Part shown: positions 1-42,800 of the stretch, piece by piece
How positions within the stretch are numbered: the stretch's first letter is position 1
Layout of the letters: every line of letters starts with the position of its first letter
NCBI GenBank assembly: GCA_905160935.1
Contig: CAJHZI010000449.1
Coordinates: forward strand, 1,399,001 to 1,463,000
Origin: Enchytraeus crypticus
Taxonomy: Eukaryota; Annelida; Clitellata; Enchytraeida; Enchytraeidae
Length of the DNA stretch: 64,000 nucleotides
Reading direction: 5' to 3'
The notes under the pieces: generated by a model
What the model saw: the letters and a program-made list of their open reading frames with translations, nothing else
Told to the model about the DNA's origin: nothing
Database searches by the model: none
Made by a program: the position numbers and the translations under genes

Positions 1-455
1 TTTATTGATTGATTGATGATTAATTAATTGATAGATAGATATAGATAGTTTGATTGATATGTTGATTGTTGATTTTGTAATTTATTGATTGATTGACGAT
101 TGATTGATTGACTGTTTAATTGATTGATTGATAAATTTATTGATTGATGGATGGATTGGTTGATTGACGAATGATGAGTTGTAAATTGATTGAGATTTAC
201 AGATTGATTGGGTGATTGATGTTATATTAAAAATGCTTGATTGATTGATTAATTGTTTGATGATTGATTGACTGATTGATTGATTGACTTATTGATTGAT
301 TGATTTATGGATTGGTTGATTGATTGACGATTGATTGATTGATTAATTGAATGATTGATTGATTGACTGATGAACAGCATGATGTACGACAAGGATGCTG
401 GTCACACTCAGTTTATTGATTGATTGGTTGATTGATTGATTGATTGATTGACTGA
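1..455 (+). repeat. (GATT)n-rich intron sequence
   Basis: Degenerate tetranucleotide array in TTGA/GATT orientation, interrupted at 370-412 by a truncated copy of the ferlin exon 1 start. No other gene seen. Confidence 0.95.
370..412 (+). pseudogene. Truncated copy of ferlin exon 1 5' end
   Basis: About 43 bp, including the acceptor GAACAG, nearly identical to 456-498 (CAGGACAC there is CTGGTCAC here). It then dissolves into (GATT)n. A tandem duplication of the intron/exon junction. Confidence 0.9.
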
Positions 456-462
456 TGAACAG

Positions 463-577
463 CATGATGTACGACAAGGATGCAGGACACACTCAGTTTC
501 TCGAGGACCTCTACGAGTGTCAGACTCGCATCCCAGGCACGAACTGGAGCCCCGCGTCTAACGGCTGGACCGATGTG
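463..577 (+). CDS. Ferlin exon 1 (of this window): start of DysF region
   Basis: Encodes [17 protein letters not shown] and ends in WTDV, matching the start of the ferlin DysF fold. The acceptor is AACAG|C, entering at codon position 3. The donor is either GTGGTG after 574 or GTGCCT after 577; both keep the frame. It is embedded between (GATT)n upstream and (AATC)n downstream. A truncated copy of its 5' end lies at 377-412. Confidence 0.85.
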
Positions 578-39204: not shown

Positions 39205-39539
39205 AGGTTTAAGCTTCTGATCTTTACGTTACGAAACATGGATGTCTAACGCCACGTTAAGCTTTACACCGGCATTTTGGAATAGTGGGGATACGTGAGA
39301 TTTAGAGCTTCCAGCTTCTGATCTTTACGTTAAGCTCTGCAGATGTCTAACTAGGATTGGAACAGCTTCTGATCTTTACGTTAAGCTCTGAGCTTCTGAT
39401 CTTTACGTTAAGCTCTGCAGTTGTCTAACTAGCACTAGATGAGCATCTGATCTTTAAGTTCTGCAGTTGTCTAACTAGCACTAGATGAGCTTCTGATCTT
39501 TACTTTAAGTTCTGAGCTTCTGATCTGTACGCTAAGCAG
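39205..39539 (+). repeat. Tandem copies of the region upstream of the GPCR start
   Basis: Seven copies of CTTCTGATCTTTACG(TTAAG), several followed by GCAG(A/T)TGTCTAAC. The last copy reads CTAAGCAGATGTCTCACC, the real start. Upstream copies meet TAG within a few codons or have TTG for ATG. Confidence 0.9.
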
Positions 39540-39815
39540 ATGTCTCACCTGAACGTAAGCTATGACCTGGCAGACTGGAACAGCTCTGAGATCTACGCCT
39601 GGCTGGAAGGAGTGTATGGAATCAGACGTCAACCTCTACCACTAGCTCTCTTCCTCACCATCGTCTACATCGTCATCTTCATCACCGGCGTGGTGGGCAA
39701 CGTGTCGACGTTCATCGTCGTGGCGCGCAATGGCTACATGCACAACGCCACCAACTACTACCTGTGTAGTCTCGTCATATCTGATCTACTGCAGTTACTG
39801 CTGGGACTGCCTCAG
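39540..39815 (+). CDS. GPCR exon 1: N-terminus, TM1, TM2
   Basis: 92 codons from ATG (preceded by AAGCAG, also a possible acceptor if a 5' UTR exon exists) to CCTCAG|GTACGA. Encodes GVVGNVSTFIVVARN and ATNYYLCSLVISDLLQLLLG. Confidence 0.9.
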
Positions 39816-42800
39816 GTACGAGGCATCTGTGTACTCATAGATACTTATAGGTACTCCTAGGTACTCATAGGTACTCCTAGGTACTCATATGTACTCCTAT
39901 GTATTCCTAGGTACTCATAGATACTCCTAGGTACTCATATGTACTGATATGTACTCATATGTACTGATATGTACTCATAGCTACTCATAGATACTCATAG
40001 ATACTCATAGGTACTCATATGTACTCCTAGGTACTCATATGTACTCCTAGGTACTCATATGTACTGATATGTACTCATATGTACTAATATGTACTCATAG
40101 CTACTCATAGATACTCATAGGTACTCATAGGTACTCATATGTACTCCTAGGTACTCATATGTACTCCTAGGTACTCATAGGTACTCCTAGGTACTCATAT
40201 GTACTCATATGTACTCATAGGTACTCCTAGGTACTCATATGTACTCATATGTACTCCTAGGTACTCCTAGATACTCATAGGTACTCCTAGGTATTCATAT
40301 GTACTCATATGTACTCATAGGTAATCCTAGGTACTCATATGTACTCCTAGGTACTCATATGTACTCCTAGGTACTCATAGGTACTCCTAGGTACTCATAT
40401 GTACTCATATGTACTCATAGGTACTCCTAGGTACTCATATGTACTCATATGTACTCCTAGGTACTCCTAGATACTCATAGGTACTCCTAGGTATTCATAT
40501 GTACTCATATGTACTCATAGGTAATCCTAGGTACTCATATGTACTCATATGTACTCCTAGGTACTCATATGTACTCCTAGGTACTCATATGTACTCATAT
40601 GTACTCCTAGGTACTCATAGGTACTCCTAGGTACTCATATGTACTCATATGTACTCATAGGTACTCCTAGGTACTCATATGTACTCATAGGTACTCCTAG
40701 GTACTCATATGTACTCATATGTACTCTTAGGTACTCATATGTACTCATATGTACTCATATGTACTCATAGGTACTCCTAGATACTCATAGGTACTCCTAG
40801 GTACTCCTAGGTACTCCTAGGTGTACCATATGTACTCATAGATGCTTGTTCAGTAATAGGTACTTCATACTGTACTTGTTCAGTAATAGGTACTTCATAC
40901 TGACTGTACTTCTTCAGTAATAGATACTTTGTCAAGGTCGATTCGATATATATTAGTATGTATTTAGTATGTATTTGTATTTGTAATTATATTTCTAGTA
41001 AAGTATTTAATAATACTGCTGGATAAGTAAAGTTAAGATTTAAAGTATTGAGTTTTATTAAAGTGAGATCCTAGGCGGTAGCTAAGCTAGGGCAAGTGGC
41101 CAATGAGGGCATGCCTAAACAGGAAGTGGAGAGAGATCCAAGATGGAAGCGTGACAACACGGACGTAAAACGTGTCAAGTTGAAAAGAGATTTAGGAGAT
41201 TTTAAGAATCTCAAGAGTAGACGAATTGAGAGCAATTCGAAGGGTTCGGGTATTCGAACCATTCGTAGTCCATCGAACAGTTGATGTGGAGAGAGCGATT
41301 GGTAGACGATCGAACTGGGAAGAGAGTTCCACTTAAGTATTCCAACCTAGGGATTATAGAGATCCTAGTAGATAACTAGTCGACAGGAAAGTACAGTAAA
41401 GTGTAGGAATTTATGCTAGAGAGAGTATCAGTAATTTGTATGTCAAAAGTAATCGTATGTAATAAAAAGTACTTGCTTTTGCGATATTTAAAGTGAACTG
41501 TAATTCGATGGAGAAGTATAATTTTTAGTTATTCGAATTGCCCGTACACGTGTTATTTGAAATCGTTTTAGTTTTCGTTCTACTATATATCCGTGTATTA
41601 TTTTATTTATTTTCGTATTAAATTAATATTTAATTTAATACAGTCGTTGAAGTTATCAATCACTTACTAGGATATCTATACATTCAGTCAAATCGAGGAC
41701 AGGTAAAGATTCCAAAATAATTATTAGAGGCAGTTTATTAGGAATTTGAATCCTGGACCAGTTGATGTCAGGTCCTCATTTTACCTCAGATTAAAGATTG
41801 TAGAATCAGGTTCCTGACATACTTTATGCTGTACTTGTTCAGTAGTAGGTACTTCATACTGTACTTGTTCAGTACTTTGTAACGGTAGCTCGACTGTGTC
41901 CAAGCCTCTGTTACTCTTAGGTACTTCATAGTATACTTGTTCAGTACTTTAAGACGGTAGCTCGAATGCGTCGAGTCATCATAAAGAAGATATTTGTGCT
42001 TCTGAAACTTGACGTTAAGTAAATAAATTACATCCCGTGGTGTAGATATATCAACTCAATATGCTAGTCTCCATTGTATCGTACAAATATGACGACCCTC
42101 TAATGCAATAAAATCATATAAAGATTTAGAAAACTTATTGAGTCAATCGAGAAACAAAGCCAATCTTCACAATTAGCTCTTCCAAATGTTGACAAGTTTT
42201 AATGAATTTAGTCTAAAATCTCGTTTAGCGTCTGTTTTAACATCTCAACATGTCAACAGAAAGACCTCATTACATGCACAACTCAACAGAAAGACTTGAC
42301 TACATTACATACACAAGTCAGTTTAACGGCTGGTTTTGCCGCCCTACAGGAGGCCTACGTGATCTGGTCGGCCTACCCGTGGATGCTCGGTGAAGCTTTC
42401 TGCGCTGTACGCACGATGGCGGCAGAGACCTCGACCTACGCCTCAATCCTCACCATCACAGCCTTCACCGTGGAGCGCTACGTGGCCATCTGCCATCCCA
42501 TGCGAGCCAAGATCATCTCCAGCCCACGAAGGGCTCTCAACATCATCGCACTAGTCTGGGTTGTGGCTGGCTGCGCCTCGGTGCCTATCTGGGTCCAGTA
42601 CGGAGTGGTGTACATCGAGGACGGAAGAGGTGTGCCTGTGAGTGAGTCAGCAGTGTGTTCGATCAGAGAGGAACGGTTCATCACGCACATGTTTGAGGTG
42701 TCGAGTGTCGTGTTCTTCGTGATACCGATGACGATCATCAGCGTGTTGTACGGACTGATTGGTATCTCTATACGTAGATCTACGCTGTGCCATCAGAGGG

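Follow-up and report, generated by a model that had tools for sequence, protein, structure and literature searches.

Tandem duplications across exon–intron boundaries in the annelid Enchytraeus crypticus, at a frequency close to that of intronic repeats

Tandem repeats that run across exon–intron boundaries have been described in lancelets under the name of mirages, in Adh3, troponin C, the globins Gb6 and Gb9, and PGBD5 (PMC3087553, PMC3902484). In the excerpts of these papers on which we draw, mirages occur at both 5′ and 3′ boundaries with units of 10–160 bp, many but not all copies keep the AG or GT dinucleotide, and the repeats are proposed as a source of introns, with reverse transcription–PCR (RT-PCR) said to suggest regular splicing (PMC3087553, PMC3902484). 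A further mark of mirages is length instability, between haplotypes or in somatic tissue. Here we describe similar repeats in a 64,000-nucleotide stretch of the genome of the annelid Enchytraeus crypticus (assembly GCA_905160935.1, contig CAJHZI010000449.1, positions 1,399,001–1,463,000, forward strand; hereafter the window), which carries 25 predicted exons of a type I ferlin gene. In eight of these exons (1, 6, 10, 11, 13, 21, 23 and 24) a splice junction falls within a tandem array, and we find comparable duplications at 12 exon edges in the group II chaperonin (CCT) family and at three in myosins. As in the lancelet genes, the unit holds the exon–intron boundary together with exon sequence, and both types of boundary are hit, the window containing five affected acceptors (exons 1, 6, 10, 11 and 24) and three affected donors (exons 13, 21 and 23) with copies spaced 20–138 bp apart. 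Likewise, most but not all copies keep AG or GT: 26 of 27 matched decoys in the window and 10 of 12 CCT copies, the exceptions being loci L037 and L046. This is the anatomy of the lancelet mirages, in another phylum. What sets the present case apart is the annelid host, the high density within the ferlin gene (8 of 25 exons) and its being known here from one assembly; a search of the open-licence literature in PubMed Central turned up no annelid example of tandem repeats that cross such boundaries. The arrays are individually real, yet their number is about what the density of intronic repeats would give.

Two further cases are informative, within what the available portions of the respective papers describe. 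In a potato gene, an intron was gained through a duplication that crosses an intron–exon boundary (PMC4974935), as the duplicated segments do here; however, in potato the new intron is spliced, whereas the ferlin gene model needs no new intron and the decoy uses that were tested would truncate the protein. In earthworm metallothionein genes, intronic minisatellites occur together with duplications of exon 4 that are missing from the transcript (PMC12783039). These genes share with ours an annelid host and intronic minisatellites, but they combine an exon duplication with a large intron array and are not described, in the text available, as a tandem repeat made from one exon edge and its splice site.

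The ferlin junctions are predictions from homology and reading frame. Comparison of the translated frames with myoferlin and dysferlin chains by phmmer places the 25 exons between positions 463 and 31290 of the plus strand; the joined splice sites yield a single, stop-terminated open frame of 1126 amino acids, and the gene extends upstream beyond the window, where its exons were placed by eye. Local duplications were detected by a shift scan (Table 1). In all eight cases the functional copy is contiguous with the body of the exon while the extra copies are intronic, each copy containing 10–60 nt of exon sequence. The units of exons 1, 6, 13 and 24 include a microsatellite tract: that of exon 6 is composed of a (TTG)n tract, AG and 49 nt of exon, that of exon 13 of 37 nt of exon, GT and (ATCA)n, and a TATG-type microsatellite lies between the copies at exon 24. 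At exon 21, the outer ends of the unit, CTACGTGAA in the exon and CTAGGTGAA in the intron, are 9-mers in which 8 of 9 bases agree. As a separate observation, the predicted acceptor of exon 10 (10339) closes its 20-bp array without a pyrimidine tract, and the equivalent AG is kept in 12 matched copies.

How often junctions fall inside such arrays has to be judged against how repetitive the introns are, and in ferlin they are covered to 8.3% by microsatellites and to 20.5% by local repeats with longer units. We counted a junction when its 30-bp surroundings had a close copy within 500 bp, using sixteen threshold settings, and across these settings six to eight of the 52 junctions in the window qualify, compared with 3.6–11.7 expected. 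Under the laxer complexity settings the observed count falls short of both baselines, whether drawn from every intron position or only from positions of equal complexity. When the junctions were shifted circularly along ferlin, the picture was similar (9 observed, mean 7.97, P = 0.41); among these nine, the case at exon 5 is a false positive, namely a microsatellite pair that flanks the exon.

The same comparison can be extended beyond the window, which belongs to a 524-Mb assembly that we used for family searches. The CCT search gave 57 matches, and 47 exons were used; 20 of the 25 intron-bearing matches without a locus were fetched. Before counting, we dropped the CCT loci L020, L038 and L039, taken as intronless, the donors of the last exons L055 and L056, and the acceptors of L084 and L096, the edges of which were not found; L026, L043, L050, L074 and L077 were set by hand. 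For myosin heads there were 81 matches, from which we took 30 exons, each with 450 bp of flank, as against 1500 bp for CCT; the acceptor of L098, although flagged, was scored as negative on account of a doubtful edge and a copy without AG. All other edges in these two families are approximate, their positions having come from a matrix trained on the window junctions. In the CCT family, duplications take in 11 of the 47 acceptors and one of the 45 donors, on a background of 8.7% of intron positions at the same loci (1026/11814); the myosins have one among 28 acceptors and two among 30 donors (background 6.9%, 101/1472, from the first 20 exons); and the window, rescored in the same way, has five among 26 acceptors and three among 26 donors (background 16.8%). 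Pooling these three gene sets, a non-random sample of 202 exon ends, 23 edges lie in duplications where 20.7 are expected (P = 0.33), and therefore a junction-specific process is not supported overall. Hence the phenomenon is not limited to one gene, and its overall frequency in the sample is that of repeats generally. A sequence-only reading of the window had proposed a genome-wide process at splice junctions: the recurrence in unrelated genes is borne out, but not a process directed at junctions, and a frequency no higher than repeat density, as found for all edges together, is the outcome which that reading had itself named as speaking against it. The published mirages that we found amount to a handful of lancelet genes; with about one in nine sampled exon ends affected here, the phenomenon may be countable in a second phylum as well, and it offers raw material for testing the gain of introns by boundary duplication.

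These observations are best explained, with a probability that we put at about 0.62, by mirage-type minisatellites that are a by-product of slippage or microhomology-mediated duplication at microsatellites of intron ends and that are tolerated, not aimed at splice sites. Specifically, a microsatellite near the end of an intron would suffer a break or a stalled fork, and repair through a few bases shared by the microsatellite or intron and the exon would cause a local tandem duplication with one end inside the exon and the other in the repeat-rich intron. The product would be a duplicated segment made up of the intron end, the splice site and 10–60 nt of exon, and some arrays may later have grown by slippage or unequal exchange, as the five near-identical copies at exon 21 suggest. 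Such a duplication would survive because one complete exon with its own junction intact remains, the extra copies falling in the intron, where splicing presumably ignores them. Exon edges would then share a general duplication process at approximately the rate of intron sequence, with selection probably purging duplications in exon interiors. The seeding step is favored by the microsatellites at ferlin intron ends (tracts of at least 12 nt within 60 nt at 17 of 48 ends; null 7.3, P = 0.008) and by those inside the four units named above.

Several results weigh against this explanation. Under the strictest complexity settings, the count of window junctions exceeds that expected from all intron positions by a factor of up to 1.7, or of about 1.2 when equally complex positions are used. 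Units of at least 60 bp occur at ferlin junctions more often than the null predicts (7 of 11 against 3.05, P = 0.013; 6 of 10 without exon 5), as they do over positions 1–44000 (7 of 13 against 2.69, P = 0.009), and units shorter than 60 bp occur there less often (2 of 17 against 4.9); the split at 60 bp was chosen post hoc, after the data had been seen. This is suggestive, though only that, of a size-dependent attraction of longer units to exon edges; it could also be a detection bias, in that one copy is held constant by selection and the duplication stays recognizable for longer. Furthermore, CCT acceptors taken by themselves exceed their background (P = 0.002). Finally, short homology at the unit ends is clear in exon 21 alone. 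The earlier proposal of an origin by slippage or microhomology is supported by the exon 21 unit and by several other units that end in a microsatellite.

The difference between the two kinds of exon edge invites the alternative that the acceptor region itself, with its branch point, (TTGA)n or TG-rich tract and AG, is a duplication hot spot, for example through R-loops or fork stalling, so that 3′ exon edges are preferred. Pooled acceptors are duplicated in 17 of 101 cases and donors in 6 of 101 (Fisher P = 0.025), against 10.4 expected for each (P = 0.028 for the acceptors), and in the 30 kb upstream of the window three further ferlin exon starts are duplicated (units of 110, 78 and 75 bp, edges placed by eye), as against one marginal donor array. 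The concentration of microsatellites at ferlin intron ends also fits. However, 11 of the 17 acceptors come from the CCT family, without which no excess is left (6 of 54, P = 0.62), only 1 of 28 myosin acceptors is duplicated with the doubtful L098 edge uncounted, and the split into acceptors and donors was made post hoc; an acceptor excess is possible, but we think a hot spot of this kind unlikely. A related idea, about as doubtful, makes the 3′ end of the intron a nursery of repeats, in which branch-point-like TTGAT would grow into sense-oriented (TTGA)n in acceptor regions and these in turn would seed duplications of acceptor and exon, such that splice signals would drive local instability independently of the lancelet mirages. 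We scored at least two repeat units in sense within 60 nt of the splice site, in the window ferlin exons and at CCT and myosin loci L021–L089, and found TTGA at 22 of 92 acceptors and 1 of 91 donors, and TCAA at 3 of 92 acceptors and 9 of 91 donors, the latter mainly from ferlin (6 of 9); for ends with just one of the two repeats the ratios are 20:1 versus 1:9 (P = 4.8 × 10^-6). Ten additional myosin exons had neither repeat at 19 placed edges, which brings the totals for TTGA to 22 of 101 acceptors and 1 of 101 donors. TTGAT matches the branch-point consensus YTNAY. In addition, (TTGA)n contains no AG and therefore can occupy the region just upstream of an acceptor and offer no rival splice site. 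Among acceptors that lack (TTGA)n the motif is only weakly in excess, with YTGAY present in 16 of 70 compared with 58 of 420 control windows, and YTNAY in 45 of 70 compared with 237 of 420. With (TTGA)n oriented as it is at acceptors, a connection between splice signals and the birth of microsatellites could become testable. A separate idea, that complementary intron ends form a stem from TCAA on the donor side and TTGA on the acceptor side, was rejected, as only 1 of 24 ferlin introns (intron 13) carries TCAA in the 5′ and TTGA in the 3′ half.

It could further be argued that the extra copies are functional, either in the regulation of splicing, as poison exons or switches for nonsense-mediated decay, or as steps toward new exons or introns. 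The copies are indeed decoy splice sites, as the sequence-only reading had stated, given how many keep GT or AG; moreover, 19 of the 27 equal or outscore the real site in a matrix built from the window's own junctions, and, in the portions of the papers at hand, boundary-crossing duplication is reported to have led to intron gain in potato (PMC4974935) and is proposed to have done so in lancelet globins (PMC3087553). Yet each of the 13 ferlin decoy uses tested, from among the 27 matched, leads to a premature stop, including extensions by multiples of three; 12 of these were followed through the whole frame and the exon 1 decoy in the added stretch only. Decoy copies also carry changes that would break the protein, such as a stop codon in a copy of exon 13, and the lancelet RT-PCR results, as excerpted, are said to suggest regular splicing (PMC3087553). 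We therefore consider functional decoys improbable, and the suggestion made earlier that the copies feed exon evolution found no backing, as no use of a decoy was shown. Still less credit is due to an assembly artefact, through mis-assembly of repeats or joining of haplotypes. One lancelet mirage is reported, in the part of the paper available, to have been aberrantly assembled in the draft genome (PMC3087553), but here the copies diverge from each other (identities of 80/85, 92/99 and 208/238) and include intron sequence, the window sits in a 2.3-Mb contig, and the same structure recurs in independent genes on other contigs (CCT and myosin). Gene predictors will face many near-perfect decoy splice sites in repeat-rich invertebrate genomes.

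Table 1. Boundary-spanning arrays of the ferlin gene and other features of the window (positions in the window)
Feature	Position	Strand	Details
Exon 1 acceptor, 85 bp x2	330-499	+	decoy 330-414 (AG ends 377), functional 415-499 (exon start 463); 37 nt of exon in unit
Exon 6 acceptor, 104 bp, 2 full + 1 partial copy	5822-6043	+	decoy AG ends 5890, exon start 5995
Exon 10 acceptor, 20 bp x ~15	10045-10355	+	exon start 10339, only 10 nt of exon inside; 12 matched decoy AGs
Exon 11 acceptor, 75 bp x4	10754-11070	+	exon start 11023; decoys end 10797, 10872 (AG lost), 10947
Exon 13 donor, 3 copies, spacings 105 + 117 bp	16102-16433	+	functional after 16141; decoys after 16246, 16363
Exon 21 donor, 92 bp x5, 99% identical	28122-28597	+	functional after 28183; decoys after 28275, 28367, 28459, 28551
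Exon 23 donor, 31 bp x4.9	30050-30209	+	functional after 30076; matched decoys after 30107, 30138
Exon 24 acceptor, 3 copies, spacings 98 + 138 bp	30435-30743	+	AG ends 30457, 30595 (decoys), 30693 (functional)
Exon 25, 115-bp duplication into 3′ flank	31199-31417	+	stop TAG 31288-31290
Repeats upstream of GPCR exon 1	39202-39538	+	
GPCR gene, peptide-type (presumed), two exons	39540-39815, 42350-42929	+	ATG 39540
10/20-bp array, GPCR intron 1	39827-40841	+	

Eleven cases with a splice site and exon sequence in the unit had originally been claimed for the window, and besides the eight described above these comprised ferlin exon 25 and both sides of exon 1 of a G protein-coupled receptor (GPCR) gene, a receptor that we take from its sequence to be of the peptide type. 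These three do not hold up. Exon 25 ends the gene, and what its repeat copies is the C-terminus with the stop codon, no splice site being included; this appears to be the same process at an exon end that is not spliced. On the 3′ side of the GPCR exon, the array starts at 39827–39831, 12–16 bp past the exon end, such that the junction is excluded, and on the 5′ side the repeats stop just before the ATG, where an acceptor is unproven.

Elsewhere in the window, scans for Rfam families and tRNAs gave no matches. A dispersed short repeat that yields similar peptides on translation (for example at 2198–2374, 7454–7711, 14402–14650 and 29363–29650) is perhaps an element resembling short interspersed elements. 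On the minus strand, and named by eye, are two similar frames of F-box/leucine-rich-repeat type (49490–50755 and 57160–58621), an apparent local gene duplication, and long frames resembling retrotransposons without long terminal repeats (59655–64000 and 23493–25093), with a zinc-knuckle stretch at 62626–63201. With regard to the host lineage, a lancelet origin, suggested by the mirage literature, was rejected on mitochondrial gene order; a search for the GFP family (PF01353) gave no match, which by itself carries no weight, as none of its 14 controls was recovered either. Partial COX1-like matches with in-frame stops occur on five contigs (L013–L017), one of them below the family cut-off. Another contig of 15,205 bp (C802; L018 and L019) is taken as the mitochondrial genome, based on a COX1 family match with TGA read through and a match to the large-subunit rRNA. 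Its genes follow on one strand in the order cox1, cox2, cox3, nad6, cob, atp6, nad5, nad4L, nad4, rRNA, nad1, nad3, nad2 (all but cox1 and the rRNA named by eye), which is presumably the annelid ground pattern.

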